A stretch of DNA of 64,000 bases from a virus: the IMG/VR virus record IMGVR_UViG_3300024259_002152, positions 62,001-126,000 of that record; one strand, given 5' to 3'. Below are positions 32,595 to 54,505 of this stretch, one piece after another. Positions within the stretch are counted from its first letter, which is position 1. Each line of letters opens with the position of its first letter. Position numbers and translations under genes: made by a program. The notes under the pieces are model-generated. The model did not search any database, was not told where the DNA came from, and worked only from the letters and a program-made list of their open reading frames with translations.

Positions 32595-32901
32595 ATTAAT
32601 AGGAACTACTGTATTTTATTGGCATGATGCTAAAAAGGAAATGCCAAAGTATGATAGGCCAGTTCTCTTAAAAAGAGAGCCACGTGATAAAGGCAATCCA
32701 ACAAGAGAGAATTTTATTAGTGCATGTCGGAAAATAGATTGGTCCGACGGGCAGGATTATTGGGATTATGTTGGGAAGGTATTTGAAGAATATGAGTTTA
32801 ATGTTGTTGGTTGGGCATATCTGGCAGAAATGGTATCTAATGATATATCAGAGAATAAGACAAGTGAAATAAATGATAGATTTGAGATATTAGATTTATA
32901 G
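32587..32901 (+). CDS. small DUF551-like protein with C-terminal RFEILDL tag (104 aa)
   Basis: I choose ATG 32587 (MNKLIGTTVFYW); an in-frame ATG at 32569 would add six residues from within the upstream gene. The body has a W-x-D-A-x4-P-x6-VLL opening and a late VVGWAYL, a pattern like small phage DUF551 proteins, though the match is by eye. The protein ends DRFEILDL, the first copy of a C-terminal peptide shared with about fifteen other proteins of this window. The remaining tagged genes begin 11 kb downstream, so the tag is not limited to one cluster. Function unknown. Confidence 0.65.
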   Translation: MNKLIGTTVFYWHDAKKEMPKYDRPVLLKREPRDKGNPTRENFISACRKIDWSDGQDYWDYVGKVFEEYEFNVVGWAYLAEMVSNDISENKTSEINDRFEILDL

Positions 32902-32914
32902 AAAAGGAGAAAAA

Positions 32915-33103
32915 ATGAGCAAAACATGTAAAGAATGTAAAGGTAAGGGAAAGATAAAAAAGAAAGAATGTGATACCTGTCATGGGTTTGGATGGGTAGA
33001 ATGTCGCTGTGGGTCATATTGTTGTAAAGAGTGTAATCCAGCCAGTAATGAGGAATCAACTATGTTATTTCCTGGTTGTTCGTTCGGAAAGTGTAACGAT
33101 TAG
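32915..33103 (+). CDS. DnaJ-type zinc-finger mini-protein (62 aa)
   Basis: Nearly the whole protein is a Cys-rich finger with CKECKGKGKI and CDTCHGFGWV, two CxxCxGxG-type units as in the central zinc domain of DnaJ. CRCGSYCCKEC and a last Cys pair follow. No J domain is present, so it is not a full chaperone. A good AAAGGAG site lies before ATG. It is short but its Cys spacing makes it a convincing gene. It could help folding, bind metal or bind a partner protein; the role is unknown. Confidence 0.7.
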   Translation: MSKTCKECKGKGKIKKKECDTCHGFGWVECRCGSYCCKECNPASNEESTMLFPGCSFGKCND

Positions 33104-33106
33104 ATT

Positions 33107-33820
33107 ATGAGCACTCCATTAGTTAGTGTAATTACGACAGCATATAATTGTGAAAAATATATAAAAGAGTCTATAAATTCTATTATTAATCAGACTTTTA
33201 GAGACTTTGAGATTGTCGTTTATAACGATGCTTCTACGGATAAAACGTGGGACATTGTTTTTCATATGGATTTATTTTGTGATCATAATATTTTTAGAGG
33301 AGATAAAAATGTGGGTTGTGGAGAAGGGAGAAATAGGGCGATAAAACAAGCAAGAGGGAAATATATAGCGATACAGGATGCTGATGATATAAGTCTTCCA
33401 GAGAGATTGGAGAAAGAAGTCAATTTTTTAGAAGAGAATGATGATATATTTTGTGTGGGAGCATGGGCCATAAAGATAAAAGAAGATGGTAGTTTTATCG
33501 AATCTATGACATATCCTCGTTCTGCACATGAAAAAATATATGAAGATATAATAGTTAAAAAAAATAATCCTATTATTGATCCTTCTTGTATGTATAGGAG
33601 GGGATTGTTTAATGAATTAGGGGGTTATGATGGTCGATGGAAACTAGTTCCTGATTTTAATCTGTGGGCTAGAGCGGCTAAAGCAGGTTTTAAATTTTTC
33701 AATTTTCAGGAAGCATTGGTGTATTATCGTCAACATCCTAATAGTGTGACAAATAAGAGTGAAATGGCTGTCGTTAGAGAGCATTACAGGATGTGTAAAG
33801 AGGTTTTAGGGAATAAATAA
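33107..33820 (+). CDS. GT-A glycosyltransferase, family 2-like (237 aa)
   Basis: Classical family 2 signatures are present: VSVITTAYNCEKYI at the N-terminus, FEIVVYNDASTDKT near residue 35, and IQDADDIS near 90 with the metal-binding DxD. PDFNLWARAAKAG near 185 matches the late acceptor/base segment. Length fits a single catalytic domain. It is distinct in sequence from the GT2 gene at 30771. With the two glycosyltransferases upstream it suggests a small pathway that adds more than one sugar. Acceptor unknown. Confidence 0.87.
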   Translation: MSTPLVSVITTAYNCEKYIKESINSIINQTFRDFEIVVYNDASTDKTWDIVFHMDLFCDHNIFRGDKNVGCGEGRNRAIKQARGKYIAIQDADDISLPERLEKEVNFLEENDDIFCVGAWAIKIKEDGSFIESMTYPRSAHEKIYEDIIVKKNNPIIDPSCMYRRGLFNELGGYDGRWKLVPDFNLWARAAKAGFKFFNFQEALVYYRQHPNSVTNKSEMAVVREHYRMCKEVLGNK

Positions 33821-33882
33821 AGGTTTTTGATAAGATGTATTGGAATAATATAAATGGGATACTTTGATACGGAGATATGAAT

Positions 33883-34350
33883 ATGCAAGAGATACCCAAC
33901 TGGATTGTCAAAGTAGTCGAGACGGAAAAATTAGAATGTCGAAACTGTAAAATGGTATTTAGTGTTGATAATCTGATGTCAATTAGTGTTCAAGAAAGCA
34001 GTAAATCTCCTCATAAAGATACTTTATGTATAGGTTTATATTGTCATGACTGTAAAGAATTGATGATTTTTGAATTAAAAGAAATGAGTTTGATTGATTT
34101 TGCATTTGAGATACTAGACCAAGAGACATCTAATAAGATTCAGAAGAAATCCAAAGATGATTCTCCAGCATTGGCAAATAAATCAGGAAAAAAGAGAATC
34201 AAAAGAATAAATTCTAAAAGCAAAATAACACGTAAAGAGGTAGATGATATAAAGAAGTTTTTAGGTGATAAGAATTTATCTCATGAAGAATTTTTAATAG
34301 CTTTAGGGATGTTGCCAGAAGATATTAAGAAATATAATTATAAAAAATAG
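33883..34350 (+). CDS. zinc-ribbon protein with basic tail (155 aa)
   Basis: Of two nearby ATGs, 33883 lies 8 bases after GGAG (33871-33874), while 33877 is only 2 bases away, so I choose the former. Residues about 17-60 hold two Cys pairs, CRNC and CHDC, a likely zinc ribbon. A Lys/Arg/Ser-rich linker follows (GKKRIKRINSKSK), and then a short helical end (KKFLGDKNLSHEEFLIALG). The layout would suit nucleic-acid binding, but no family is recognised. It is monocistronic-looking, with 62 bases upstream. Confidence 0.6.
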   Translation: MQEIPNWIVKVVETEKLECRNCKMVFSVDNLMSISVQESSKSPHKDTLCIGLYCHDCKELMIFELKEMSLIDFAFEILDQETSNKIQKKSKDDSPALANKSGKKRIKRINSKSKITRKEVDDIKKFLGDKNLSHEEFLIALGMLPEDIKKYNYKK

Positions 34351-34358
34351 AGAATAAC

Positions 34359-35414: not shown

Positions 35415-35420
35415 ATACCC

Positions 35421-35449: not shown

Positions 35450-35487
35450 TGTAGAATGTTTGGTTGTTAATTATCGAGGTAGATAAA

Positions 35488-35969: not shown

Positions 35970-37514
35970 TTGAGTACTAATCAGTTAATCCTACGCGTTG
36001 ATCATAATTCAACGTATGTAGCAGGTAGGATGAGCAGTGAAATATATGATAAATTTAAGAGAGAATTAGGTTATCTTCCAGAAAATTCTTTTTGGATGAT
36101 TAAGAATAGTTCTGAAAACGCTAAAGAACACGAGAAGTGGAAAAAAGAGTGGGACGGCAATATTTCTGCTGTTTGTTGGAATAAACAATTCTGCCATTGT
36201 CATATAAAAAAAAGCGGCTTACATTTTCAATCGGGATTACTATCTAAGGCGGTAGATTTTTTTAGGGCCAATGGAGTGTCCTTTAGAAGAATAGATATTA
36301 GGAGTAAAACTGAAAAAACAAATAGATATTCTATGTCTAGTGAATTTGAATCGAGGGATTATCAGCAGGATCTTATTGATAAAATAATAGGAACGCAGCA
36401 AATCCAAGGTATAGATAGAGGTATTATTAAGGCAGCAACAGGGTCTGGGAAAACTGGTATTGCTTGTGGTGTTATAGCAGGGGTAGGAGTGGCTCCTGCT
36501 GTATTTTATGTGCCTAGTATTGATCTCTTAAGACAGGCTAAGGATGAGCTAGAAAGATTTATAAGGCAAAATAATCTAGGTATAGAAGTTGGGATAATTG
36601 GTGGGGGCAGTAAGGATATAAAAGACATTAATGTTATGACCATACAAACAGCAGTTAGAGCATTGGGTGGAGTATGGGTGAAATTTGATGATGAAGATGA
36701 TACCAAAGATGATACGGACATTGATGATGTTAAAGAAAATGTTAGGGATTTAATTAGAAATTCAAAACTAATGATATGCGACGAAGTGCAACATTGGGCG
36801 GCTGAGACCTGCCAGATAATATCTGATGCTTCTTCTTCTTGTCAGTATAGGTATGGTTTATCGGCAACACCTTATAGAGATCAAGGAGATGATATATTAA
36901 TTCATGGATGCTTTGGAAAAACTATTCAGGATATTAGCGCTTCTTTTTTAATTAAGAAGGGATATCTTATTAAGCCTACAATCTATTTTATAAAAATTAG
37001 TAATATGAGAGGACTAAGGACTGCAACATATGCTAATGTTTATAAGCAAGCTATTATAGAAAATTCATATAGAAATAATAAAATAGTAGAAATGGCTAAT
37101 CGTTGTTTAGCGGGAGGTAGAAAAGTTCTTATTCTTGTGAAGCAAATAAAGCATGGAAAGATGTTGGAAAAATTAATGCCAGGAAGTGCTTTTATATATG
37201 GAGGCACAGCTAAAAAGAAAAGAAAATCTCATCTGGACCATATGAGGAAAGGAGATCCTCAGATTACTATTGCTAGTGTAATTTTCGATGAGGGTATTGA
37301 TGTTAGGCCTTTAGATACTTTGATTTTAGCAGGAGCGGGTAAATCTCCTACTAGAGCTTTGCAAAGAATAGGGAGAATCTTAAGACCTTATGAGGGTAAG
37401 AAAGATGCGATAGCTATTGATTTTATGGACAATTGTAAATACATGCAAAGTCATAGCAAAAAGAGGTTAAATATCTATAAAACAGAAGAAGAGTTTGAGA
37501 TTATAGGAGATTAG
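35970..37514 (+). CDS. uvsW: UvsW-like superfamily 2 DNA helicase (514 aa)
   Basis: An ATP-driven DNA helicase that in T4-like phages unwinds branched recombination and replication intermediates. Visible motifs are the Q-like SRDYQQDLI, Walker A ATGSGKT near residue 150, motif II CDEVQH (the DExH position), motif III GLSATPYR, and the C-terminal IFDEGIDVRPLDTLI and RALQRIGRILRPYEGKK with the arginine finger region. Length is close to T4 UvsW. The start is probably TTG 35970, 8 bases after AGGAG; the next in-frame ATG would remove 20 residues. It lies upstream of replication genes including DnaB-like helicase and primase parts. Confidence 0.85.
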   Translation: MSTNQLILRVDHNSTYVAGRMSSEIYDKFKRELGYLPENSFWMIKNSSENAKEHEKWKKEWDGNISAVCWNKQFCHCHIKKSGLHFQSGLLSKAVDFFRANGVSFRRIDIRSKTEKTNRYSMSSEFESRDYQQDLIDKIIGTQQIQGIDRGIIKAATGSGKTGIACGVIAGVGVAPAVFYVPSIDLLRQAKDELERFIRQNNLGIEVGIIGGGSKDIKDINVMTIQTAVRALGGVWVKFDDEDDTKDDTDIDDVKENVRDLIRNSKLMICDEVQHWAAETCQIISDASSSCQYRYGLSATPYRDQGDDILIHGCFGKTIQDISASFLIKKGYLIKPTIYFIKISNMRGLRTATYANVYKQAIIENSYRNNKIVEMANRCLAGGRKVLILVKQIKHGKMLEKLMPGSAFIYGGTAKKKRKSHLDHMRKGDPQITIASVIFDEGIDVRPLDTLILAGAGKSPTRALQRIGRILRPYEGKKDAIAIDFMDNCKYMQSHSKKRLNIYKTEEEFEIIGD

Positions 37515-37521
37515 GACATTG

Positions 37522-38472
37522 ATGATGGCACAAAAAGATGCTAAAGATATTCTCAGAGATATAAAGGCAGATATAGAAGGGGTAGACCCTAAAGACATAC
37601 AGTTTCAAGACTTACGTAAAAGAAGAAATAAAAAAAAGAAAGTAGAAAAATCTAATGAAAGTGAAAGTGGAAGTGGTATAATTGGAAACACTGAAGGTTT
37701 CTCACTTTTGGAAGTAGAGACTAAATGTTGCGATTATAGAGATATAAGTAAGAAAGGAAAGTTGAGAGAAAAGGGTAGTCTTGAGGAGTGGGGACCTTTT
37801 GATTTTTTTAAATTTGCTCATAAATTATATGTTAATCGATATCAGATAGAGTGGGATTTAAATATGGGGGGAAGTAGTCTTGAGATTAACCGGATTAAAG
37901 ATAAGTTTGTTGATGTTTTCGGTTATTGTTGTAATTTAATGATATATGATTATATTGTTTATTTTTTCGAATATCATATTGATTATTTTAAGAATAAAGA
38001 TGGTTTTTATTTTAGCCAAATGAAAACAGATTGGATAATTCTAACATTTCAAGAGACATATGATTTTAGAGAGCGTTTCGTTAATTATATGACGCAGAAA
38101 AAACAAAAGAATAAGAAATATCAATTAACACATGATGAAATTCAAAAATCTTATGATATGGGCGATACAACTTTAATTGGGAATTATGGAATTGTTATCG
38201 CTTTAAACTGGCTTTTGAAGATAAAGAAGATTAACAAAAAAGATGCGATAAAGGTTGTCGTTGATGCATGTAAAGATATGTATAAAAAGCATTTGATAGA
38301 TGTTGTCCAAAGCGCAACGGAGATATATTCTCCATATCCTGTTAATCTAATATTCAAAAGTCCTCAACTTGTTCTAAATAAAATAGATAAAAATATTAAA
38401 CTTAAAGTAGAGTTTAATGATAATAATCAAATGGAATTTTTACAAAAGGGAGATAATACGAAAGGTGCTTAA
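37522..38472 (+). CDS. hypothetical protein (316 aa)
   Basis: Two consecutive ATGs (37522 and 37525) follow AGGA 37513-37516, so the start may be one codon later. The first 60 residues are charged, with a Lys/Arg cluster (LRKRRNKKKK) and a Ser/Glu linker. The remainder is a helical domain rich in Tyr, Phe and Ile (YDYIVYFFEYHIDYF, TDWIILTFQETYDF, ALNWLLKIKKINKKDAI). It ends by overlapping the start of the IF-3 gene (TTAATGG), so the two are translationally linked. No family recognised. Confidence 0.6.
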   Translation: MMAQKDAKDILRDIKADIEGVDPKDIQFQDLRKRRNKKKKVEKSNESESGSGIIGNTEGFSLLEVETKCCDYRDISKKGKLREKGSLEEWGPFDFFKFAHKLYVNRYQIEWDLNMGGSSLEINRIKDKFVDVFGYCCNLMIYDYIVYFFEYHIDYFKNKDGFYFSQMKTDWIILTFQETYDFRERFVNYMTQKKQKNKKYQLTHDEIQKSYDMGDTTLIGNYGIVIALNWLLKIKKINKKDAIKVVVDACKDMYKKHLIDVVQSATEIYSPYPVNLIFKSPQLVLNKIDKNIKLKVEFNDNNQMEFLQKGDNTKGA

Positions 38473-38981
38473 TGGAACGAACATATAATGTTAACGGCCA
38501 GATCGAAGCAGATATAGTTAATTTGGTTTTGACTGATGGACAAGTTAAGAAGGCTATTAGTTTATCTGATGCACTAGACATTGCTGAAGATGAAGGGTTA
38601 GATGTTGTAGAAGTATCTTCAAATGGGGAAAATGGTATTCCTGTTTGTAAGATGATAGATTATGGCAAAATGATGTATCAACAAAGAAAAAAGAAAAAGA
38701 ATCAAAAGCAAATACAGCATGTTAAAGAGATTAAATATAATTTAAATATTGGTTCTCATGATCTTGGCATTAGACATACAAAGATATTAAAGTTTTTATC
38801 AAAAAAATATACTGTTAAATATACTTTGGAACTTAATGGCAGAGAAAGGAATATGATTGATAGTGCTGTAGTTACAATTAATAAAAATTTGGAAGAATTT
38901 AGAGATGTGGCGACATGGAAACCTCCAAAAGTTTCAACAGGTAGAAGAGTAACGATATCTACCACTCTTGTCCCAGTATAG
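38472..38981 (+). CDS. infC: translation initiation factor IF-3 homologue (169 aa)
   Basis: Matches bacterial IF-3 over both domains. The N-domain has YNVNGQIEA, LTDGQVKKAISLSDALDIAEDEGLDVVEVS and IPVCKMIDYGKMMYQQRKKKK. The C-domain has VKEIKYNLNIGSHDLGIRHTKILKFL and a closing SNGRRVT-type strand (STGRRVTISTTLVPV). IF-3 binds the 30S subunit, prevents premature joining of 50S and checks start-codon pairing. Length is slightly under the usual 170-180. A phage copy could bias initiation towards phage messages or replace the host factor. It is coupled to the upstream gene and followed by promoter box 4. Confidence 0.92.
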   Translation: MERTYNVNGQIEADIVNLVLTDGQVKKAISLSDALDIAEDEGLDVVEVSSNGENGIPVCKMIDYGKMMYQQRKKKKNQKQIQHVKEIKYNLNIGSHDLGIRHTKILKFLSKKYTVKYTLELNGRERNMIDSAVVTINKNLEEFRDVATWKPPKVSTGRRVTISTTLVPV

Positions 38982-38983
38982 TG

Positions 38984-39012
38984 TTGAAAAGTGAAAAGTA
39001 AGTTGTTAATTT
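38984..39012 (+). promoter_or_regulatory. candidate phage promoter, box copy 4
   Basis: TTGAAAAGTGAAA (38984-38996) starts just after the IF-3 stop codon. TAATTT (39007-39012) follows after 10 bases, a weaker hexamer than in other copies. It lies upstream of the AAA+ ATPase gene at 39044. Confidence 0.42.
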
Positions 39013-39043
39013 AGTAGTAGTGTTTTTAGAAAAGGATTAATAG

Positions 39044-40702
39044 ATGAAACCGATTAGTAAAAAAGTGAGCGAAGCGACATTAGACGAGATGTGTACGAAA
39101 AAATTTAAGGATGATTTTACAAATATTTTACGTTGTCGTTATCCTTTATTTTATATCACTCACAATGAGGAAAAAAGATTAACACAATTTTTGACTCACT
39201 TTTGTAAGGTCAAAGGTTATGAATGCTTTTTATGGGATAGCTATAATGGGCTTGTAAATTTGTTTAGTGGAGAAGAGGTGGCAGGTACTACTGAGGATCT
39301 GAAAAATAATCCTCTGGCTATTCTCGATCATGTTATTGGGGAAGGTAGAACTTTTGAGAAAAAGAAAACAAGTGTTCTAGAGAAGAAGGAGAAGGGTTGT
39401 AATGGGATAATTTATGTCCTGTTGGACTTTTTTAATTTTATCCAAGCAAATCCAGATATTGAAAGACGTTTTGTAGCATTGTCTAATTTGAATTCTATTG
39501 TTAGTACTGTTTGTACAGGTCCGTATTATCAGTCCACCGATGTGATTCAAAACATTTTACCGATGATTGAGTTTCCTTTTGCTAACAAAAAAGAAATTCG
39601 TCATGCTTTATATGATGTGGTTCATGGTGCTGAAAGAAAGATTCCTACTATTGCTAAAGAGACTAAGGCAATGGAAGAAGAACTGATTAGTGCTGTTTCT
39701 GGTTTGACTCTTATGGAGGCACAAACGGCATTTAGTAAATCTCTTGTGTCGCGCCATACTTGGGACACAGATCTCATTTTAGAGGAAAAGAAACAGATTA
39801 TCAGTAAAAGTGGCATGTTGGAGTATTTTGATAAAACTGTTTCGATGGAAGATATCGGAGGATTAAAGAATTTAACCACATGGATAAAAGAGAGAAAAAA
39901 ATGTTTTTCACAAGAGGCAGAAGATTATGGGATAAAGAAGCCTAGGGGTCTGTTGACTATTGGTATGCCTGGGTGCGGGAAGTCTTTAGTATGTAAAGCC
40001 ATTAGTAGTGTATGGAAAATGCCTTTATTAAGGTTGGACTTTGGTAAGCTTTTTGGGAATCTTGTTGGTGATTCTGAGAAGAATGCTCGGGAAGCCATTA
40101 AACAGGCCGAAGCAATTGCTCCCTCGATTTTGTGGATAGATGAAATTGAGAAAGCTATTTCTGGAGTTAATTCTAGTGGTCGCTCAGATGGAGGAACTAC
40201 AAGTCGAGTGTTGTCCACTTTCCTAACATGGATGCAGGAAAAAACCTCTCCTGTATTTGTGGTTGCTACTGCTAATAATCATGATGCGATACCTCCTGAA
40301 TTTTTGAGAGCAGGTCGTTTTGACGAGATCTTTTTTGTTGATTTGCCGAATATAGATGAGAGAGAAGAGATTTTTAATGTTCTTCTCAGACTTAGGGAAA
40401 TTAACACCAAAAAGATTAACATACCTTTATTGGCAGAAAAAAGTTCTGGGTATAGTGGTGCCGAGATTGAAAAAGGGATCGATAATGCTATGCTAGTCGG
40501 CTTTAGCGATTCAGCTAGGCCAATTGATAGTGACGACATTGTTACTGCTCTTGGTCAATTTAAATCTTTGTTTGAAATGAGACAAGCAGATTTTGAAGAG
40601 CTTAGAGAATGGGCAACAAATAAATGTCGTATGGCAAACGATGAACCTAAGAGAATCGTTAATCTAGGACAAGATAATTCTGCTAAAGATTTGGATTTAT
40701 GA
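39044..40702 (+). CDS. Ycf46-like AAA+ ATPase (552 aa)
   Basis: The N-terminal half begins with FTNILRCRYPLFYITHNEEKR-like sequence, the type found in Ycf46 proteins of cyanobacteria, plastids and some phages, followed by a helical domain. The AAA+ core has Walker A GMPGCGKS near residue 302, Walker B ILWIDEIEK near 360, sensor-1 VVATANN, an arginine finger in RAGRFDE and a small lid domain (GYSGAEIEKGIDNAM). The cellular role of Ycf46 is poorly known, so substrate remodelling is all that can be said. It overlaps the helicase-loader gene by four bases (ATGA), suggesting replication function. The C-terminus KDLDL faintly recalls the shared LDL tag. Confidence 0.82.
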   Translation: MKPISKKVSEATLDEMCTKKFKDDFTNILRCRYPLFYITHNEEKRLTQFLTHFCKVKGYECFLWDSYNGLVNLFSGEEVAGTTEDLKNNPLAILDHVIGEGRTFEKKKTSVLEKKEKGCNGIIYVLLDFFNFIQANPDIERRFVALSNLNSIVSTVCTGPYYQSTDVIQNILPMIEFPFANKKEIRHALYDVVHGAERKIPTIAKETKAMEEELISAVSGLTLMEAQTAFSKSLVSRHTWDTDLILEEKKQIISKSGMLEYFDKTVSMEDIGGLKNLTTWIKERKKCFSQEAEDYGIKKPRGLLTIGMPGCGKSLVCKAISSVWKMPLLRLDFGKLFGNLVGDSEKNAREAIKQAEAIAPSILWIDEIEKAISGVNSSGRSDGGTTSRVLSTFLTWMQEKTSPVFVVATANNHDAIPPEFLRAGRFDEIFFVDLPNIDEREEIFNVLLRLREINTKKINIPLLAEKSSGYSGAEIEKGIDNAMLVGFSDSARPIDSDDIVTALGQFKSLFEMRQADFEELREWATNKCRMANDEPKRIVNLGQDNSAKDLDL

Positions 40703-46197: not shown

Positions 46198-46412
46198 TGG
46201 AATATAAATGTCAAACAGTTGATATGTCTCGTATGATCGTGGGTTCAATGGGCTTTTTTAGTCCTATTTGTGAAAGTTGTTCTACTCAAGATTGTAGCAA
46301 TCCTATCGAAAAAACAAAAGTTAGTATTATGGGGGTTGTAAAAGAAGTAAAGGTCTATAGTAGAGGTAGTCAATCTAGATTTGTTGTTCAATGTGAAGGA
46401 TATATGCCATAA
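46197..46412 (+). CDS. small Cys-containing hypothetical protein (71 aa)
   Basis: Contains C5, then CESC near residue 25 and a fourth Cys at 33 (CSTQDCSN), a possible metal-binding site. The second half is beta-like (KVSIMGVVKEVKVYS, SRFVVQCEGYM). Start and stop both overlap the neighbours by one base in TAATG. Not recognised; gene status is supported by tight packing and same-strand continuity. Confidence 0.5.
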   Translation: MEYKCQTVDMSRMIVGSMGFFSPICESCSTQDCSNPIEKTKVSIMGVVKEVKVYSRGSQSRFVVQCEGYMP

Positions 46413-47203: not shown

Positions 47204-47445
47204 AGAAACAAGTTATTGATAAAGATGATAGGATGTGGATAGGACTAGGTTTTAAGTCCTTTGCCCGATTTTTTGGTTTAAGTATCGAAGAAGCTTATAA
47301 AATCATTTCTAATCCTAATGAGGTTTTTGAAGAAATGATAGAAGAAATGGATTCTTCATTAAATGAATATGAAAATTTCATGGTTAAGACAATGAGAATG
47401 GATGAGAAAGAAGAACTGACTCGGCTTGATATTTTAGATTTATAG
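47200..47445 (+). CDS. small acidic protein with C-terminal RLDILDL tag (81 aa)
   Basis: Starts at ATGA overlapping the stop of the metallopeptidase gene. The body is a short helical protein (WIGLGFKSFARFFGLSIEEA, then EVFEEMIEEMDSSLNEYENF). It ends TRLDILDL with codons CGG CTT GAT ATT TTA GAT TTA, which differ at the codon level from most other copies of the tag. No family recognised. An AGGGGA-type site for the next gene lies just after the stop. Confidence 0.6.
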   Translation: MKKQVIDKDDRMWIGLGFKSFARFFGLSIEEAYKIISNPNEVFEEMIEEMDSSLNEYENFMVKTMRMDEKEELTRLDILDL

Positions 47446-47742: not shown

Positions 47743-47748
47743 AGATGG

Positions 47749-48108
47749 ATGAGATTTATACGTAAAGAGTTTATAGTTACTACTATATTTAATAAAGAAT
47801 TAACAGAGAGGGACGAAGTCCTAATCGTTTTTAACAATTTATTAAATGAGAGGATAGAGTTCGCTATGACTATGAAGAAGTATATGCCTATGCAACAAGA
47901 CTATTTCAATATGAGTTTTGAAAAAGTTAGGGTGAAGAGAATCAACGATGATGATACTGTTGATTTGTTAGCTTTCAAGAGTGGGGTTAAAACTAACATA
48001 AAGGGGGTTCCTTTTGATCATATCATAGAAGTAAATGCGACTACTAAAAAACATAAAATTTTAGATATTGACTCCGATTTAAATCGTTTTGATATATTAG
48101 ACTTGTAA
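47749..48108 (+). CDS. small protein with C-terminal RFDILDL tag (119 aa)
   Basis: The body is basic and beta-like (RFIRKEFIVTTIFNKELTE, FNMSFEKVRVKRINDDDTVDLLAF). It ends NRFDILDL with codons CGT TTT GAT ATA TTA GAC TTG, quite different synonymously from the other tag copies, so peptide rather than DNA conservation is indicated. A Lys-rich linker (KKHKILDIDSDL) precedes it. Its TAATG overlaps the first 23-residue-repeat gene. Not recognised otherwise. Confidence 0.6.
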   Translation: MRFIRKEFIVTTIFNKELTERDEVLIVFNNLLNERIEFAMTMKKYMPMQQDYFNMSFEKVRVKRINDDDTVDLLAFKSGVKTNIKGVPFDHIIEVNATTKKHKILDIDSDLNRFDILDL

Positions 48109-48815
48109 TGACAGAAGAAGTAAAAAAAGAAGTAAAAGAATTAATAGATCAATATAAATTAGATTGTTCTATTGAAGAGTTTAAAAACAAAGCAAATTGG
48201 GAAAAAATTTCTCATTATGACTTCCTTTCAGAAGATTTTATTAGAGAATTTCAAGATGAAGTACATTGGGAATATCTTTGTTTTTATCAACTATTGCCAG
48301 AAGACTTTATTAGAGAATTTAAAGACGAGGTACATTGGGATAATGTTTTTATATGTCAAAAAATATCAGAGAATTTTATTAGAGAATTTAAGGATAAAGC
48401 AAGTTGGAGAGAAATTTCTTATTATCAAGAATTATCAGAGAATTTTATTAGAGAATTTAAAGATGAAGTAAATTGGAACAATATTTGTCAGAAACAAAAG
48501 TTATCAGAGAATTTTATTAGAGAATTTCAGGATAGGGTAAATTGGCATTGGACTCCCTTTTATCAAACCTTATCAGAAGATTTTATTAGAGAGTTTCAAG
48601 ATAAAGTAGATTGGGTGGCTGTATCTTTTTGTCAAGTATTATCAGAAGATTTTATCAGGGATTTTAGAGACAAGATTTCTTTAGGGTATTTATCGAGTAA
48701 TCAAAAAATAAATGTCTCAGAAGAATTTCGAAAAGGAATAAAAAATGGAAAAATATTACCTCCTCCAATAAAACCATTTTCTTTTGGTAATAGAGTAGAA
48801 ATGTTGGACTTATAA
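48108..48815 (+). CDS. 23-residue FIREF-repeat protein with C-terminal RVEMLDL tag (235 aa)
   Basis: About eight tandem units of 23 residues with consensus LSEDFIREFxDxVxWxxISxxQ run from residue 20 to 205. The first unit is degenerate and the rest are regular, as in a helical solenoid. Similar repeats occur in uncharacterised bacterial, phage and giant-virus proteins, from memory. A basic, Pro-containing linker (KNGKILPPPIKPFSF) leads to NRVEMLDL, the shared tag. The gene at 49162 has the same linker and tag with fewer repeats. A protein-interaction scaffold is likely but unproven. Confidence 0.7.
   Translation: MTEEVKKEVKELIDQYKLDCSIEEFKNKANWEKISHYDFLSEDFIREFQDEVHWEYLCFYQLLPEDFIREFKDEVHWDNVFICQKISENFIREFKDKASWREISYYQELSENFIREFKDEVNWNNICQKQKLSENFIREFQDRVNWHWTPFYQTLSEDFIREFQDKVDWVAVSFCQVLSEDFIRDFRDKISLGYLSSNQKINVSEEFRKGIKNGKILPPPIKPFSFGNRVEMLDL
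48226..48690 (+). repeat. tandem 69-base repeats encoding 23-residue units
   Basis: Seven clear units within the gene at 48108, each with a core reading GA[GA]/AATTTTATTAGAGAATTT (SE[DN]FIREF) followed by a [DE]-x-V-x-W codon block. They diverge at third positions and in the spacer, so they are coding repeats rather than a fresh DNA duplication. Confidence 0.75.
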
Positions 48816-49162
48816 TGTATAGAGTTGTAGTATTAAAAGAGAAAGATAATAGTTGTTCAGGTTGTTTTGGAAAATCACTTGGATTCTGCTCGAGTTATCA
48901 GTGCCTTACAGGAAATACCTCTTCTGATAGGTCCACTACTGCTTGTATTAATAAAAACAAAGATATTAATAGATATGTCCAGGGTTTTTTGAGATCAAAA
49001 GCACAAGTCCTAAATGACTATAATAGCACAGAAGAAGTTATTAATTCGTTCATAAGATATCTAGAAAATATTGGTAGTACAGATGATGATGCTATTATTG
49101 TAGAAGAAAAGGAAGAAAAAGAAGAAATTATTGAAGACAGATTCGAAATGTTGGATTTGTAA
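48815..49162 (+). CDS. Cys-rich protein with C-terminal RFEMLDL tag (115 aa)
   Basis: The N-terminal 35 residues hold five Cys (SCSGCFGKSLGFCSSYQC), a possible metal or disulfide cluster. A helical middle (RYVQGFLRSKAQVLNDY) and an acidic linker (EEKEEKEEIIE) lead to DRFEMLDL. It lies between two FIREF-repeat genes and shares TAATG overlaps with both. Not recognised otherwise. Confidence 0.6.
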   Translation: MYRVVVLKEKDNSCSGCFGKSLGFCSSYQCLTGNTSSDRSTTACINKNKDINRYVQGFLRSKAQVLNDYNSTEEVINSFIRYLENIGSTDDDAIIVEEKEEKEEIIEDRFEMLDL

Positions 49163-49650
49163 TGACAGAAAAAGTAAAAAAAGAAGTAGAAGAAATAATA
49201 AAAGAATATAAATCACAAGTTTCTGTTAGTTATATTCGGGCATTTGAAGATCAGAAATTTGAAAGTCAGGCATTTTGGCAGTCTATTTCTCAATTCCAAA
49301 TTTTATCAGAAGATTTTATTAGAGAATTTCAAGATAAAGTATGGTGGTATGCTATTTCTTGGCATCAAAAATTATTAGAAGATTTTATTAGGGAATTTAA
49401 AGATGAAATAAATTGGTATCAAATTTTTTTACATCAAAAATTATCAGAAGGTTTTATTAGGGAGATTACTGAGAACTTGAAAGACGACAAGAAGTTTTAT
49501 TATGAAGAAAATTTAAGATGTTTACTTAGAAACAAAAATATACCAAATCAAATAAGAAAAGAGATAAATAATTATGGAAAAATATTACCTCCTCGTGGTC
49601 CAATAAAATTATTTTCTTTTAGTGATAGAGCAGAAATGTTGGACTTATGA
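49162..49650 (+). CDS. FIREF-repeat protein with C-terminal RAEMLDL tag (162 aa)
   Basis: A shorter relative of the gene at 48108: same N-terminus (MTEKVKKEVEEIIKEYK), about four 23-residue units (ILSEDFIREFQDKVWWYAIS, LLEDFIREFKDEINWYQIF, LSEGFIREI), a related linker (YGKILPPRGPIKLFSF) and the tag DRAEMLDL. It is a tandem paralogue separated by one unrelated Cys-rich tagged gene. It overlaps the third repeat gene by ATGA. Probable interaction scaffold. Confidence 0.65.
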   Translation: MTEKVKKEVEEIIKEYKSQVSVSYIRAFEDQKFESQAFWQSISQFQILSEDFIREFQDKVWWYAISWHQKLLEDFIREFKDEINWYQIFLHQKLSEGFIREITENLKDDKKFYYEENLRCLLRNKNIPNQIRKEINNYGKILPPRGPIKLFSFSDRAEMLDL

Positions 49651-50165
49651 CAGAAGAATTAAAAAAAGAAATAGAAGAAATAATAAGAATTGAGAATCTT
49701 AGTTGTTCTGTAGAAGAATTTATTATAGAGGCAAATGATCCTATTTATAGAATTCCCATAGAAGAAGTTCCTTCTATGGAGGGGAAGAAAAGGGTGTGTA
49801 TAAAAACTACTCTGTGGAGTAGAATTTGTCAACATTGTAGTTTATCAGAAGATTTGATGAGAGAATTTATTGAATTACTTCATTGGCCTGGTGTATCTTG
49901 TCATCAAAAATTATCAATAGAATTTGTTAGAGAGTTTAAACACAAAATTCATTGGTATTGGCATACTCATAGAACAGATTTGTCTTATGATTTTATTTTA
50001 GAATTTGAAAAATATTTAGATTGGGAATATTTGATGAAAAAGAAATATTATATATCTGATAATCAAGGTTTTTTTAATGGTGATTTAGATTTTTCTTTAG
50101 AAGAATATAAAAGATTTAAAGAAGAAAATAAAATTCATAGTAGATTTGGTATTTTGGACTTATGA
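49647..50165 (+). CDS. divergent FIREF-repeat protein with C-terminal RFGILDL tag (172 aa)
   Basis: Third member of the repeat family: MTEELKKEIEEIIRIENLSC at the start, then an insert of about 40 residues and three or four weakened repeats (LSEDLMREFIELLHWPGVS, LSIEFVREFKHKIHWYWH, LSYDFILEFEKYLDWEYL). It ends SRFGILDL, a variant in which Gly replaces the acidic residue. Its divergence from the two upstream copies suggests an old duplication. It is followed after 24 bases by the dnaE N-part gene. Confidence 0.6.
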   Translation: MTEELKKEIEEIIRIENLSCSVEEFIIEANDPIYRIPIEEVPSMEGKKRVCIKTTLWSRICQHCSLSEDLMREFIELLHWPGVSCHQKLSIEFVREFKHKIHWYWHTHRTDLSYDFILEFEKYLDWEYLMKKKYYISDNQGFFNGDLDFSLEEYKRFKEENKIHSRFGILDL

Positions 50166-50189: not shown

Positions 50190-51605
50190 ATGAAATACAA
50201 TAATAAAGATTTTGTTCACTTTCACACACATTCGGAATTTAGTCAGTTTGACGGTTTGGCCAAGGTAGATGATCTTGTTCTTCAAGCTCGAAAGATGGGA
50301 TTTCCATCATTAGCACTTACGGACCATGGATCGGTTATGGGCTGGGTTAAATTTCTCCAGGCAGCAAGAGCTACTAAGGACAAAAAAGGGAAAGATATTC
50401 CTTACGCTCCTATTAAACCTATCCTTGGTTGTGAATTTTATCTGGCTCGAAAAATGAGTATAGGTCAAAATGAGGAGAAAAGAGATACTGATCTTATAAA
50501 AAAATGGCAGCCCGATGGGAGAAGAGGAAATAGACATTTGAATCTCTATGCTATGAATTTTGAAGGATATAAGAATGTATGTCGTATGTCCCAAAGGTCT
50601 TTTACCGAGGGTTTTTATTATGATGCACGTATCGATATTGATTTAATATCAAAACACTCTAAAGGAGTAATGTGTGGTTCAGCATGTCTATCTAGCGTTA
50701 TTAACGCTAATTTAATGTATGGTCGTTACAACCAAGCTAAACAGGTTTGTGGTGTTTTGAATGAGATATTTGATGGTAATTTTTTTCTAGAAATAATGTA
50801 TCATGGGATTAGGGAAGAAAGAGAAATTATTCCTTTAATCTTAAAATTATCATCAGAATTAGATATTCCTGTAGTTGCTACGAATGATTCTCACTACATT
50901 TATAAGGATCAAGGAGAATCTCAAGAAGTCCTATTGTGTATGTCTCAGCAAAGATGTGTTAAAGATCCAAAGAGATTAAAATTTGGTCATATGGAGTTCT
51001 ATCTAAAAAGTGCAGAAGAAATGGGCAGGATGTTTGGGCATATCCCTCATAGTTTGACTAATTCTGTTGCTCTTGCGGAGAGAATTAATACTAAAGATAT
51101 AGAAGATAACCTTTTTGGGGGCATGAGACTGCCAAAGTTCGATATACCTGAAAAGTATAAAAGTCCTTATGATTATTTATCTGATTTAGCATGGCAAGGC
51201 ATGAAAAGAATAGGTTGGGATCAGAGTAAAGAGCATGTTGAAGCACTAAAAAAAGAGTTAGAAGATGTTCTGGTCGCTCAAGAAAATAATAATTATGATT
51301 TCTCAACTTATTTTCTAATTGTTCGTGATTACATTCTTGACGCAAAGGAAAAGGGTGTTTTGGTGGGTTGCGGTAGAGGGAGTGGTTATGCTAGTGTGCT
51401 ATTAAGATGTATTGAAATTACTTATGGAGTTGATCCATTAAAATATGGACTTCTTTGGGAAAGGTTTTTAGGATTTGATTCTAAGAAGTTTATTAAAGAG
51501 TCAGATTTCGGCTTTGAAGAAGATTTGGTGCAGGCGGCGGCAGATAAAGATTTAGGAGGAGATAGAGAGTTAGAAGATGATTTGGGAGGGGTAGATAGAT
51601 ATTAA
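50190..51605 (+). CDS. dnaE: DNA polymerase III alpha, N-terminal part: PHP and start of palm (471 aa)
   Basis: Matches the first third of bacterial DnaE. The PHP domain has HFHTHSEFS near residue 10, LALTDHGS near 42, GCEFYLA near 80 and ATNDSHY near 233, so its metal ligands look intact and it could be an active 3'-5' exonuclease. The palm begins with VGCGRGSGYASVLL near 396 and DPLKYGLLWERFLGF. The protein then ends with an acidic tail (LGGDRELEDDLGG) just before the position where PDxDxD should come. That motif is in the gene at 54542. Together the two products total 1128 residues, close to one DnaE. No intein motif is seen. Confidence 0.9.
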   Translation: MKYNNKDFVHFHTHSEFSQFDGLAKVDDLVLQARKMGFPSLALTDHGSVMGWVKFLQAARATKDKKGKDIPYAPIKPILGCEFYLARKMSIGQNEEKRDTDLIKKWQPDGRRGNRHLNLYAMNFEGYKNVCRMSQRSFTEGFYYDARIDIDLISKHSKGVMCGSACLSSVINANLMYGRYNQAKQVCGVLNEIFDGNFFLEIMYHGIREEREIIPLILKLSSELDIPVVATNDSHYIYKDQGESQEVLLCMSQQRCVKDPKRLKFGHMEFYLKSAEEMGRMFGHIPHSLTNSVALAERINTKDIEDNLFGGMRLPKFDIPEKYKSPYDYLSDLAWQGMKRIGWDQSKEHVEALKKELEDVLVAQENNNYDFSTYFLIVRDYILDAKEKGVLVGCGRGSGYASVLLRCIEITYGVDPLKYGLLWERFLGFDSKKFIKESDFGFEEDLVQAAADKDLGGDRELEDDLGGVDRY

Positions 51606-51619: not shown

Positions 51620-51880
51620 ATGACAGACAAAAAAGAAAAATTTAATATAGGGTGGGGAGACAGACGGGTAGGAGTTATTGGAAAAGATGGAGAAATGATA
51701 GGCAATTTTGTTGTTTTTGACCCCAAAACAAGAATGTTGAAATCTGTTGATGAAAAAGGAGAAGTAGTAAATTTAATTATGGATGCCGATTGTAGGACAT
51801 GGATTCCAGAAGAAATAGAGAAAAAAGAAACAGAAGAGGATATAGGGATAGAGAATCGTTCAGATATTTTGGATATTTGA
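51620..51880 (+). CDS. small protein with C-terminal RSDILDI tag (86 aa)
   Basis: A small beta-type protein (FNIGWGDRRVGVIGKDGEMIG, NFVVFDPKTRMLKSVDEKG) with an acidic linker (EEIEKKETEEDIGIE) and the tag NRSDILDI. It is the first gene of the cassette lying between the two dnaE halves. It starts 14 bases after the dnaE stop. Not recognised; from here on most tags end in Ile instead of Leu. Confidence 0.6.
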   Translation: MTDKKEKFNIGWGDRRVGVIGKDGEMIGNFVVFDPKTRMLKSVDEKGEVVNLIMDADCRTWIPEEIEKKETEEDIGIENRSDILDI

Positions 51881-51997
51881 AGAAAGTAGATAGATATTAG
51901 TGCAGAGAAGAAAGAGATAATATATCTAAACTTTAGTAATGAATGTTCTATTTGGAAGATTAGTTCTATCATTAACAAAAGGGATGTGAAACATTTT

Positions 51998-52153
51998 ATG
52001 ATAGATGATAATAAATGTTTTGTTATAGGGTGTCTTGGTGTTAATGAAGAAGCATATGTAGGAGAATATGTGTTTTTCAGAGATTTTAATCATTGTCTGA
52101 GGTTTAAAAAAATAGAAGCAATTCATGATAGATTTGAGATAATGGACTTATAG
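51998..52153 (+). CDS. short protein with C-terminal RFEIMDL tag, start uncertain (51 aa or longer)
   Basis: An open frame from 51890 ends at TAG 52151-52153 with DRFEIMDL, the shared tag, which is strong evidence that the frame is translated. The first ATG is 51998; GTG 51986 or a non-standard start nearer 51890 would add up to 36 residues and would extend the protein back over the otherwise unexplained 118 bases before it. The body contains VIGCLGVNEEAYVGEYVFF and a basic segment before the tag. Family unknown. Confidence 0.5.
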   Translation: MIDDNKCFVIGCLGVNEEAYVGEYVFFRDFNHCLRFKKIEAIHDRFEIMDL

Positions 52154-52162
52154 GAGAAAAAA

Positions 52163-52687
52163 ATGAAGAGATCGTGTCATATTTGCAAACATGGTGTTAT
52201 AGTTGAATATAAATATGAAGATGATTATGACGAGGACTATATTTTTAAAGGATCGGTTATATTTTGTATTGCAAATCCTCCTCTTTTTGTAGGGGATGAT
52301 GATCATCGTTTTGGGAATGATCTTCAGATCGTAGAAGGAGAAAAGGAGATAAAGGAATATTGTTATTATCCTGTTGTTTATAGAAATGATAATGAGAATA
52401 TAGAAGAAGATGATGAAGATGATGAATATTATGGTAATGGAGAGATAAGTGTTGCTCCTTGTTCTCTTTATTGTGAATCGGCCACTAATAAAACTAAATA
52501 TACGAAGAAATTGGAGAAAATAGAAAAAGAAAAGCAAGAGCAAATAAAAAAAGCAGAAACTAAGAAGAAAGCAGAAGCCAAGAAAAAAGCCGATAAGTTA
52601 CAACGTAAAAAAAATAATAAAAAACGGAAACTAAAAGAGCAAGAAGAAATGAAATTAAAAAACAGATTTGAAATATTGGATATATGA
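52163..52687 (+). CDS. Cys-containing protein with Lys-rich coiled coil and C-terminal RFEILDI tag (174 aa)
   Basis: The N-terminal part has CHIC near residue 5, further Cys near 35, 67 and 98-103, and a long acidic loop (EEDDEDDEYYG). Residues 110-165 form a highly charged Lys/Glu/Ala helix (EKIEKEKQEQIKKAETKKKA), probably a coiled coil. The tag NRFEILDI ends it and the last ATA TGA overlaps the next ATG. It may be a zinc protein with a long helical arm. Function unknown. Confidence 0.6.
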   Translation: MKRSCHICKHGVIVEYKYEDDYDEDYIFKGSVIFCIANPPLFVGDDDHRFGNDLQIVEGEKEIKEYCYYPVVYRNDNENIEEDDEDDEYYGNGEISVAPCSLYCESATNKTKYTKKLEKIEKEKQEQIKKAETKKKAEAKKKADKLQRKKNNKKRKLKEQEEMKLKNRFEILDI

Positions 52688-53010
52688 AATACAAAGTAGG
52701 AGATAAAGTAAGGATTAAGATATGGGAAGACATGTTAATAGAGTTGTGTAATTATTGGGAGACTCTAGAACAGGCAAGAAACCGTCTTGAGGATCAACAT
52801 ATCTGTCTTGAAAAGGAACTTAACAAGGTAAATGTTGATAGGATTTTGACTATTGAAAGTATAGAAAAACGTGAAGGTTATTATTGTTATCGTACAAAGG
52901 AGAAAGGTTGGGAATGGACTGAGGATATGATAGAAGGGATAGTAGAAGACGTGATAGAGGACCGAATTGAGGATAGAATAGAAAGTAGATTTGAGATATT
53001 GGATATATGA
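52684..53010 (+). CDS. small SH3-like family member with C-terminal RFEILDI tag (108 aa)
   Basis: Starts MKYKVGDKVRIKIWEDM and has the late WTEDMIEGIVE shared with the genes at 30506 and 53671. After this domain, where the untagged copy stops, it continues with a repetitive acidic linker (EDVIEDRIEDRIES) and RFEILDI. This shows the tag as an add-on to a conserved small domain. It overlaps both neighbours by ATGA. Function unknown. Confidence 0.65.
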   Translation: MKYKVGDKVRIKIWEDMLIELCNYWETLEQARNRLEDQHICLEKELNKVNVDRILTIESIEKREGYYCYRTKEKGWEWTEDMIEGIVEDVIEDRIEDRIESRFEILDI

Positions 53011-53402
53011 AATTTATAGAAGTAATAGATTATAATAAGTCATATCCTCAAGGTATTTTTGTAAAAATTCCTATCAAAGATATAAAGAAATTTCATAAGG
53101 TTGAAAAATATACTAGATATTATATAGATTTAGATGATTCAGAACGTTTGTTAAAACGTAAGTATAAAGAACACCTTGGTAATCACATGTTTATCGAGAA
53201 ATCTGAAAATGGTCAATATTATAGTGCTGGGATTATGATTAATCATAAAACACAGATACAATGCCAATCGTCATGTGGTGGTAGTATATATTTTTATTTT
53301 TCAGATTTGGATTATGAAGAATTTGAGGGAGAAGCTCGGTTGTATGATTTGTCGTTACATATTGCCGATATTAATTATAGATTTGAGATATTGGATATAT
53401 AA
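53007..53402 (+). CDS. small protein with C-terminal RFEILDI tag (131 aa)
   Basis: Body: KFIEVIDYNKSYPQGIFVKI, a DLDDSERLLKRKYKEHLG helix, and a Cys/Gly turn (IQCQSSCGGSIYFYF). It ends with DINYRFEILDI, and the same eleven residues end the in-frame part of the next gene, with nearly identical DNA, so this end was probably copied between the two genes. Not recognised otherwise. Confidence 0.6.
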   Translation: MKFIEVIDYNKSYPQGIFVKIPIKDIKKFHKVEKYTRYYIDLDDSERLLKRKYKEHLGNHMFIEKSENGQYYSAGIMINHKTQIQCQSSCGGSIYFYFSDLDYEEFEGEARLYDLSLHIADINYRFEILDI

Positions 53403-53404
53403 AA

Positions 53405-53671
53405 GTGACAGATAAAGAATTTTTACAGATGGTGAGAAATTCATTTGCTCAGGTTCGTAATAAGGGTAATTTGCCTACTGGTCCTGAGCTAATTGAATCA
53501 TTATTATCAGTTCAACCTATGACTGATGAATTAGTTGCAGAGGGATATACTAATGAATTAATAAAATTAGGAAGTTCTAATTTGCAGCGTAAAAAAGTTA
53601 TTATTACAGCATATATGGATATTAATTATAGATTTGAAATATTGGATATACAAAAACAGGAGATAAAGTAA
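53405..53671 (+). CDS. small protein whose RFEILDI tag has lost its stop codon (88 aa)
   Basis: Starts at GTG 53405. The body is a helical domain (FLQMVRNSFAQVRNKGNLP, ELIESLLSVQPMTDELVAEG). DINYRFEILDI occurs in frame, but the codon after it is CAA instead of TAA, so six further residues (QKQEIK) follow up to a TAA that overlaps the next ATG. The tag is therefore internal here. A single T-to-C change explains it; sequencing error cannot be excluded. Function unknown. Confidence 0.55.
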   Translation: MTDKEFLQMVRNSFAQVRNKGNLPTGPELIESLLSVQPMTDELVAEGYTNELIKLGSSNLQRKKVIITAYMDINYRFEILDIQKQEIK

Positions 53672-53940
53672 TGAAATATAAAACAGGAGATAAAGTAAGG
53701 ATAAAGACAAAGGGTCAGATGGAGAAAGAATTTGGCTATTATGACGAAGAAAGCAAATTCATAAATTGTGATCAACATTTTTCTTCTATTATGGAAGAGG
53801 CACTGAATCGGCTAGATAGTGATAGAATTCTTACTATTAATCATTTAGAATATTTTCAAAATGTTAATTATTATTACATGAGGGAAATAGAGGGATTTTG
53901 GACTGATGATATGATAGATGAGTTAGTAAATGATAAATAG
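53671..53940 (+). CDS. small SH3-like family member, tag out of frame (89 aa)
   Basis: Third member of the K-x-GDKVRIK family (MKYKTGDKVRIKTKGQM, and FWTDDMIDELVNDK at the end), with an AGGAG site before ATG. It stops at TAG 53940, but in the +1 frame the sequence continues NRFEILDI and stops at 53962. Removing one A from the run at 53936-53938 would make the end VNDNRFEILDI, a normal tag. So the tag was lost by a one-base insertion, is made by frameshifting, or the base is an error. Confidence 0.6.
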   Translation: MKYKTGDKVRIKTKGQMEKEFGYYDEESKFINCDQHFSSIMEEALNRLDSDRILTINHLEYFQNVNYYYMREIEGFWTDDMIDELVNDK

Positions 53941-53962
53941 ATTTGAGATATTGGATATATAG
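53930..53962 (+). other. orphan, out-of-frame RFEILDI tag sequence
   Basis: The frame ATG ATA AAT AGA TTT GAG ATA TTG GAT ATA TAG encodes MINRFEILDI. The last 24 bases are almost identical to the tag ends of the genes at 52684 and 53007. It overlaps the end of the gene at 53671 in a different frame. It is read as a decayed or frameshift-dependent tag. Confidence 0.7.
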
Positions 53963-53971
53963 GAATAAAAG

Positions 53972-54505
53972 ATGAGTGAAGTAAGTAAATTATCAGAAGA
54001 AGATCTTAAAAAAATAGCGGATATGATGGTTGATCAGGCAGTAGTGCCGTCTCCTAAAGCAATTATTAAAATAGAAAATGAGACTGTTCCTGAAACTGAT
54101 ACAATTAAAAGATATAAAAGGTCTAATAAACAATTACGGACAAAAGTAGAAAGACAGATTAGCGAAATAGCCAAACAGGAAGCAGAGATAAAAGAGTTGC
54201 AGGTAAGTGCTTATCTTAATACGGATGAGGCTAAAGATACGATCAATAAAAAATTAAGAGAAGAAAAACAAGCATTAAAGCTAAAAATGGAAGAGCAGGG
54301 ATTAAATTTTGAAAAAGAGCGCAAAGAAATAATAGAGACAAGAAGTAAGATTTATGAGTTAGAACGAACAATAGGGAGTAATAAGAAAGAGATTGAGGGG
54401 CTAAGAACAGAAGTGGATCAATTAATGAATGATAATAGAGAACTTCAAGCAGAGATAGATGCTAGAATTAAAGCAGATGGTAGATTTAATATAATGGATT
54501 TATAA
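53972..54505 (+). CDS. coiled-coil protein with C-terminal RFNIMDL tag (177 aa)
   Basis: After a short N-terminal segment (SEEDLKKIADMMVDQAVVP) residues 55-165 form a long charged heptad-type helix (IKRYKRSNKQLRTKVERQIS, KLREEKQALKLKMEEQGLNF, KKEIEGLRTEVDQLMNDNRE), a probable coiled coil. It ends GRFNIMDL, a variant tag with Asn in place of Asp/Glu. It is the last tagged gene, immediately before promoter box 6 and the second dnaE part. A dimeric tether is a plausible role. Confidence 0.65.
   Translation: MSEVSKLSEEDLKKIADMMVDQAVVPSPKAIIKIENETVPETDTIKRYKRSNKQLRTKVERQISEIAKQEAEIKELQVSAYLNTDEAKDTINKKLREEKQALKLKMEEQGLNFEKERKEIIETRSKIYELERTIGSNKKEIEGLRTEVDQLMNDNRELQAEIDARIKADGRFNIMDL

Follow-up and report, generated by a model that had tools for sequence, protein, structure and literature searches.

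The peroxisomal targeting signal 1 (PTS1) is a C-terminal tripeptide, placed at the very end of many unrelated proteins and read by one receptor. Phage T4 uses a short N-terminal peptide, the capsid-targeting sequence, which is carried by several unrelated small internal proteins and cut by the prohead protease. This article concerns a C-terminal peptide, RFDILDL or RFEILDL (the tag), shared by otherwise unrelated proteins of a large virus. It was noticed in a stretch of 64,000 nucleotides (the window), positions 62001-126000 of the 350,866-nt IMG/VR record IMGVR_UViG_3300024259_002152 (G000). Like PTS1, the tag marks many unrelated proteins with a few residues at the C-terminus; unlike PTS1, it spans seven to eleven residues, tolerates a short extension, and has no known organelle. 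It differs from the T4 sequence in position, being at the C-terminus or no more than about 16 residues from it.

The p97/Cdc48 system offers another likeness. About 30 cofactors, many of them through short linear motifs (SHP, VIM, and VBM), dock on this single hub, a member of the AAA+ ATPases (ATPases associated with diverse cellular activities) (PMC5389986). Here too, dozens of unrelated proteins carry one short motif, and a Cdc48-like AAA+ is encoded in the window. However, the SHP consensus, h(x)1-2F/W(x)0-1GxGx2L (PMC5389986), does not describe the tag, which lacks the conserved glycines and lies at or near the C-terminus; binding of the tag to the ATPase is putative. Family 1 encapsulin cargo peptides (PMC8346489) are likewise short and C-terminal, and bring different proteins into an HK97-fold shell. 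The tag is not tied to a shell protein: 47 contigs with the related capsid are tag-free (several are fragments), and one tagged contig, G004, has an unrelated head. The bodies are also far more numerous and diverse, and the tag is known from sequences, not from virions.

Two further comparisons concern hubs and turnover. The β-clamp motif is a hexamer, Q-phi-x-[LM]-x-[FL] (PMC11139829); it too is short, often C-terminal, and brings unrelated proteins to one hub. The tag shares its [LM]-x-[FL] ending, with L or M at position −3 and L (or I) at −1, but lacks the Gln at motif position 1 and the aliphatic residue at position 2: among 124 tags, F predominates at −6 and E/D at −5. An ssrA-like C-end degron acts as a free C-terminal signal, unlike natural tags that are followed by 1-16 residues.

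Phage G provides a superficially similar case, an expanded zinc-ribbon family in which many proteins have the common C-terminal sequence YWKENDRYL... (PMC7824862). Its genome (JN638751) encodes 26 such proteins, at 26-33, 100, and 352-370 kb, with the C-terminal pattern YWKENDRYL..[IL]L.K. We considered phage G as a second tagged system and rejected it, since that C-terminus belongs to one homologous family: there whole proteins are homologous, whereas here only the tag is common. A large survey of phage protein mosaicism could not have seen the tag, because its minimum shared length was 50 residues (PMC10684548). Our literature searches, made over open-licence papers, found no shared C-terminal phage tag, in agreement with the initial annotation, which knew of no such system. 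By analogy, the tag would work like p97 cofactor motifs, encapsulin cargo peptides, or PTS1, while the full definition of none of the systems compared describes it. We favor, with a probability of roughly 0.7, the reading that RFDILDL/RFEILDL is an autonomous short linear motif, a C-terminal docking tag for one common partner.

A shared C-terminal peptide

The initial annotation listed 15 window genes, and all 15 end R-x-[DEGN]-[IM]-[LM]-D-[LI]-stop with a variety of synonymous codons. A sixteenth gene, absent from that list, has the tag six residues before its stop (Table 1). The record was then read whole, in stretches, with about 467 genes called. The genome-wide motif search that had been proposed finds 37-38 tagged proteins, above expectation. 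All of their genes lie on the + strand. They cluster at 10.6-13.3, 106-117, 131-145, and 250-256 kb, and single ones occur elsewhere. Three more contigs, G001 (297,710 nt), G002 (547,943 nt), and G003 (64,827 nt), have the tag and many core genes in common with G000. Five contigs together yield 149 tagged proteins in 85 body clusters.

The last 30 residues of each protein were scored with a position-specific scoring matrix of the tag, with internal windows as the control. Scores of at least 8 occur at 37 of 437 C-termini in G000, 34 of 436 in G001, and 68 of 725 in G002; the internal windows predict 0.33, 0, and 0, respectively. Among giant phages outside this clade, the same threshold gives one hit in phage G and none in LR745208 or Tunturi_5. 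A tag-blind, de novo enumeration of C-terminal four-residue patterns ranks the tag first in G000, G001, and G002 (28-45 proteins per genome, versus 0 in the internal control window), and finds nothing in the 334-kb relative G048, LR745208, or Tunturi_5. Chance is excluded as the origin of the tag, because 37 of 437 C-termini match in G000 where 0.33 are expected.

Together, 124 exact tags at C-termini give the consensus [P]-I-x-[SND]-R-F-[ED]-I-L-D-[LI]. Conservation thus reaches upstream of the original seven residues, to an 11-residue stretch (P-I-x-[SND]-R-F-[ED]-I-L-D-L). The Arg and the penultimate Asp had been called invariant. They are nearly so, but this is partly forced by the search pattern, and a looser scan finds endings such as RANWLDL, RWEILIL, and RFEILDFRP. 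About 20 further proteins, mostly from G002, carry the tag 1-16 residues ahead of the stop, which shows that the carboxyl end need not be free. Internal copies are almost nil in about 399,000 residues.

A variable charged linker precedes the tag. In the one usable structure model, a confident SH3/Tudor-like body is followed by a tag region with a predicted local distance difference test (pLDDT) value of about 55, a low confidence of the kind that a short linear motif should show. The [SND]-R-F-[ED] run is similar to a helix capping box; from this likeness, the tag may fold on binding.

The bodies do differ, as first noted: the 16 window proteins form 14 body clusters, and 38 proteins from the whole record form 31. 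They include an HExxH zincin, phrog_3532-type helical repeats, an 18-member SH3/Tudor-like family, zinc ribbons, and one match to DUF4116 (E 2.5e-51). The SH3-like model matches Tudor domains weakly (best E 0.23). The zincin has no sequence relative in the PDB, and its structure model is poor (mean pLDDT 53) and not usable. Tagged proteins are small, with a median of 104-113 amino acids (aa), and membrane-like segments occur in 8 of 143, versus 84 of 855 other small proteins. Untagged homologs of these bodies occur in phage G, in G048, and as SH3-like paralogs in the window. In three small tagged proteins, the first 30-35 residues look like the N-arm of the phage-G-type major capsid protein, and the zinc ribbon of the giant protein encoded upstream of the capsid gene recurs in two other tagged proteins.

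Selection was examined in 37 reciprocal-best ortholog pairs with both members tagged. The tag codons comprise 129 identical, 101 synonymous, and 29 nonsynonymous comparisons; the 20 codons upstream of the tag in the same pairs comprise 186, 113, and 441 (Fisher odds ratio 13.6, p about 1e-34, a value that assumes an independence between pairs that fails). This synonymous excess within the tag, next to a nonsynonymous excess just upstream, identifies the tag as a selected peptide. The earlier claim of selection on the peptide, beyond mere DNA identity, is therefore upheld by 101 synonymous versus 29 amino-acid changes. The Arg, Ile, and Asp codons of the tags follow genome usage.

Genome and expression context

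G000 is probably a relative of Bacillus phage G. Its core proteins match those of G002 and G003, whose capsid protein has 55% identity to phage G gp27 (PDB 6wkk). The G000 record itself has no phage-G-type major capsid match; its left end aligns past the capsid region of G003.

The window is a replication module, encoding a DnaB-like helicase, DnaE in two genes, and RecA, followed by UvrD with an intein. Several tagged genes sit between the two DnaE halves. DnaE is split in G000, G002, G009, and G048 (apparently also in G001), with variable small genes between the halves. In G048, which is tag-free and has the same split DnaE, these are two unrelated, untagged genes.

A promoter-like element, TTGAAAGTGAAAGT-N-TATAAT, lies in full or partial form upstream of the clamp gene, the DnaE C-terminal half, and several first tagged genes. 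This −35/−10 pattern has 21 forward matches in G000. In G000, G001, and G002, genes with an element of this class nearest upstream carry the tag more often (odds ratios 2.4-3.5, p 0.0008-0.004; the promoter classes and the assignment of genes to them are our own). A second intergenic element, TTCCAGACAAG(TG), marks the tag-free 285-350 kb region of G000 (L014-L018) and is probably an early promoter or regulatory element. Its form TTCCAGACAA has 23 forward copies in G000, almost every one of them intergenic and within 285-350 kb (for example at 293002, 324190, and 349559). The co-occurrence of tagged genes with the first element, together with the tag-free region marked by the second, points to expression of tagged genes with replication genes rather than with structural genes.

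Distribution

The tag is restricted to a small clade of phage-G-like megaphages. Phage G, LR745208, Tunturi_5, and G048 are without it. No DNA match to the tag was found in 47 contigs whose phage-G-type capsid proteins are 62-96% identical; many of these are fragments, and they include records of 494, 476, 371, 334, and 255 kb.

More distant relatives carry diverged forms. G009 (102,984 nt) has them at the same place: its zincin ends RYDFIEI-EDEEE, its version of the 119-aa protein ends RWDLIDV-GEDMDA, and other proteins end RWEIFDL-WD and RTDLIDI-EGDED.... In G056, the ending of a distant zincin homolog is RRFDLEL. Diverged tags were sought in G035, G042, and G063, and none was found. A related-locus search with zincin and AAA+ alignments (poor seeds) returned known contigs only.

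One tagged contig stands outside the clade. G004 (33,533 nt) is an unrelated phage, with terminase, portal, major head, and tape-measure matches of its own, and only 2 of its 42 genes match the megaphage clade. It encodes two adjacent, tandem tagged proteins, whose bodies are unmatched and unrelated. Its metagenome number, 3300033143, is near that of G002 (3300033145), and low G+C is common to G004 and the megaphages (32-35% versus 31-34%). The simplest explanations of its tags are a host-encoded reader, or exploitation by G004 of the megaphage reader.

IMG/VR scans produced no further unrelated tagged phages, and an LDI-type scan added four contigs with DNA matches, none of the four an in-frame tag. 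Among 84,980 species genomes there were 16 DNA matches, of which one is an in-frame C-terminal tag: a 120-aa open reading frame (L099:48-410) on contig CAMDDF010000006.1 of a Kuenenia metagenome-assembled genome, ending VVSRFEILDL. It adjoins genes that by eye resemble phage replication genes. This Kuenenia-binned tag may be real or due to chance.

What reads the tag?

The initial annotation proposed a docking, sorting, or packaging tag recognized by one partner. A selected peptide, unrelated bodies, and restriction to one clade all speak for a tag with one partner, which is the most economical reading; the packaging part has been weakened. In the phage-G-like megaphage clade, the tag is attached to dozens of small proteins that are mostly soluble and unrelated to one another. 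In the proposed mechanism, the bodies would differ in what they bind or catalyze, and the tag would bring each of them to the same place. One partner in the infected cell, presumably a protein hub, would read all of the tags, and the tagged proteins would serve as interchangeable adaptors or clients at replication time. In this sense a shared C-terminal code probably plugs dozens of unrelated, fast-turning-over small proteins into one hub during infection. We also consider it probable that such a docking code serves some giant phages and one or more unrelated phages as a modular effector system, in which adding one short peptide brings in a new function. Given this docking model, the reader would be host-encoded with about 45% and phage-encoded with about 40% probability; the weights given below to a host hub and to the AAA+ ATPase are parts of the confidence in the docking tag, not additions to it.

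Several points weigh against this reading. No partner was found, and binding by the tag is putative. The ortholog pairs behind the selection test are non-independent. Tag Leu codons are 95% TTA/TTG, versus 61% genome-wide, and part of the tag conservation may reflect recent copying. Genes were called with a simple caller of our own, and several of the records may lack parts. A site or host shared by G004 and the megaphages is inferred only from metagenome numbers and G+C.

The reader may be a core machine of the host (for example RNA polymerase, a protease or chaperone, or a replication hub) common to the megaphage and G004 hosts, a possibility that we rate at clearly less than an even chance. 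The two tandem tagged proteins in a small, unrelated phage of similarly low G+C fit this idea. Untagged relatives such as phage G have named hosts of their own, so absence of the tag could follow host range. The scans argue the other way: no further unrelated phages in IMG/VR, and a single in-frame C-terminal tag in the species genomes. If instead the reader is encoded by the phage, its best candidate is the Cdc48-like AAA+ of the window. The ATPase domain profile of this protein matches Cdc48/p97 chains (E about 1e-54), and its identity to homologs in G001, G002, and G009 is 86, 75, and 62%. In this specific form of the docking reading, which is rather unlikely, the AAA+ or its complex would read the tag, the tagged zincin would be its peptidase partner, and other tagged proteins would act as client-bringing adaptors in the manner of p97 cofactors. 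The AAA+ and the tagged zincin co-occur in all five contigs where the zincin is found (G000, G001, G002, G009, and G056), a phylogenetically non-independent count; searches of the large relatives G043, G044, G048, G057, and G060 yielded neither. The AAA+ also ends in a linker of its own and a short tail of acidic and hydrophobic residues, [KR][DE]L[DE]L; in G056 both the AAA+ and the zincin finish with the four residues DLEL. Yet G035, G042, and G063 encode AAA+ homologs where neither tag nor zincin was found, and tagged G004 has no AAA+ match.

Packaging in the encapsulin manner, with a C-terminal cargo peptide that binds the interior of the HK97-fold capsid so that the proteins are packaged and injected, draws on the capsid N-arm-like starts and recurring zinc ribbon described above, and on the short C-terminal cargo peptides of encapsulins (PMC8346489). 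It is unlikely: the tag is absent from the 47 contigs with the same capsid type (many of them fragments), few tagged genes lie in the structural region, and the packaging idea is weakened by the replication-type promoters, by the weight of tagged genes in replication-type operons, and by the major head protein of G004, which is of an unrelated family. Docking of small proteins on a phage or host sliding clamp is quite improbable. The [LM]-x-[L] ending after a hydrophobic residue does resemble the β-clamp hexamer and the E. coli Pol IV tail, RQLVLGL (PMC11139829), tagged genes have replication genes around them, and the phage has a clamp gene of its own, weakly matched. The tag nevertheless has F and E/D in place of the defining Gln and the aliphatic residue that follows, and the DnaE C-terminal half of the same phage ends TIDIFG, which is clamp-motif-like and unlike the tag. 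The clamp motif, a candidate prompted by a resemblance to T4-type polymerase tails, was rejected on these two grounds. A DNA- or RNA-level repeat (a recombination hot spot or mRNA element) translated in frame by chance is hardly credible. The Leu codon bias and the nearly identical 3' ends of the neighboring genes that end at 52687, 53010, and 53402 are what it would predict, but the Arg, Ile, and Asp codons sit at genome usage, the motif occurs almost only at in-frame protein ends, and the excess of synonymous changes already contradicts it. The Leu bias suggests instead that the tag multiplied through local duplication or recombination of 3' ends, after which selection preserved the copies. 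In bacteria, hydrophobic residues at a C-terminus can serve as degrons, and the small, variable bodies might be middle-expressed proteins whose lifetime the tag limits. This is very improbable, given that the near-invariant Arg and Asp, the 11 conserved residues, and the up to 16 residues after the tag misfit a simple C-end degron.

If one partner does read the tag, as the docking reading holds, the tag would be a direct handle on a hub. Naming that hub would give function by association to dozens of proteins unexplained by family libraries, and effectors of uncultured phages would be recognizable by the tag alone. The docking tag would also show how giant phages add functions fast, by combining a body with a portable tag. 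The same tag in an unrelated phage contig could mark a shared host factor.

Table 1. Features of the window and of related contigs. Window coordinates count from the first nucleotide of the window; those of G000, G001, and G002 refer to the contigs.
Sequence	Coordinates	Strand	Length (aa)	Feature	C-terminus	Remarks
Window	30506-30760	+		Untagged SH3/Tudor-like paralog	TDEMIEGLVE	
Window	32569-32901	+	110	Tagged protein	NDRFEILDL	
Window	39044-40702	+		Cdc48/p97-like AAA+ ATPase (phrog_8638)	AKDLDL	Conserved short tail; candidate reader or fellow client of the tag hub
Window	44195-44422	+	75	Tagged protein	ESRMDILDL	G001 ortholog tagged too
Window	46412-47203	+	263	Zincin-like tagged protein (HELCHY...EEFAYG), conserved	CDRFDILDL	Orthologs end RFDYLDL (G001), RFDLLDL (G002), RYDFIEIEDEEE (G009); distant homolog in G056
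Window	47200-47445	+	81	Tagged protein	TRLDILDL	
Window	47749-48108	+	119	Conserved tagged protein	NRFDILDL	G009 ortholog ends TRWDLIDVGEDMDA
Window	48108-48815	+	235	Tagged, phrog_3532 helical-repeat family	NRVEMLDL	Phage G homologs untagged
Window	48815-49162	+	115	Tagged protein	DRFEMLDL	
Window	49162-49650	+	162	Tagged, phrog_3532 helical-repeat family	DRAEMLDL	
Window	49647-50165	+	172	Tagged, phrog_3532 helical-repeat family	SRFGILDL	
Window	50190-51605	+		DnaE N-terminal half (PHP domain)		Context, split DnaE
Window	51620-51880	+	86	Tagged protein	NRSDILDI	
Window	51998-52153	+	51	Tagged protein	DRFEIMDL	55 aa from GTG at 51986
Window	52163-52687	+	174	Tagged protein	NRFEILDI	
Window	52684-53010	+	108	Tagged SH3/Tudor-like protein	SRFEILDI	Family of 18, 16 tagged
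Window	53007-53402	+	131	Tagged protein	YRFEILDI	
Window	53429-53671	+	80	Sixteenth tagged protein	...INYRFEILDI, then QKQEIK-stop	NYRFEILDIQKQEIK; 53405-53671 from GTG
Window	53671-53940	+		Untagged SH3/Tudor-like paralog	DDMIDELVNDK	Natural control adjoining tagged genes
Window	53972-54505	+	177	Tagged protein	GRFNIMDL	
Window	54542-56515	+		DnaE C-terminal half	VETIDIFG	Resembles clamp-binding motif, unlike tag
G000	30146 (L004:10146-10370)			Tagged protein with capsid N-arm-like start		
G001	32529-32756			Tagged protein with capsid N-arm-like start		
G002	508421-508639			Tagged protein with capsid N-arm-like start		
G000	10549, 20507, 226239, 249474, 266754, 268962, 272875, and others			TTGAAAGTGAAAGT-N-TATAAT sites		

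Other features of the genomes

The UvrD-like helicase of G000 (127991-130972; L007:2091-5069) has its intein inside (Intein_splicing, E 3e-15). Farther along, a Ro60/TROVE and vWA protein (283387-285114; L014:17487-19214) adjoins an AAA ATPase, with an RNA ligase (286281) nearby. A strongly conserved protein at 30539-31597 (L004:10539-11597), 85% identical in G002, 75% in G009, and 63% in G048, has the look of an actin-type ATPase by eye only, and has no PHROG match.

Near the capsid gene of G002 and G003 (for example at G003 37383-42750 and 25792-27360), shared N-terminal starts occur. One, MNWYK[KR]..., is common to 11 genes of G002 and five of G003. A second start, MK[IL][IL][KR]T[AK]..., occurs in five or six genes near the G003 capsid gene. 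These shared N-terminal starts are possibly capsid-targeting peptides, a second tag-like set.

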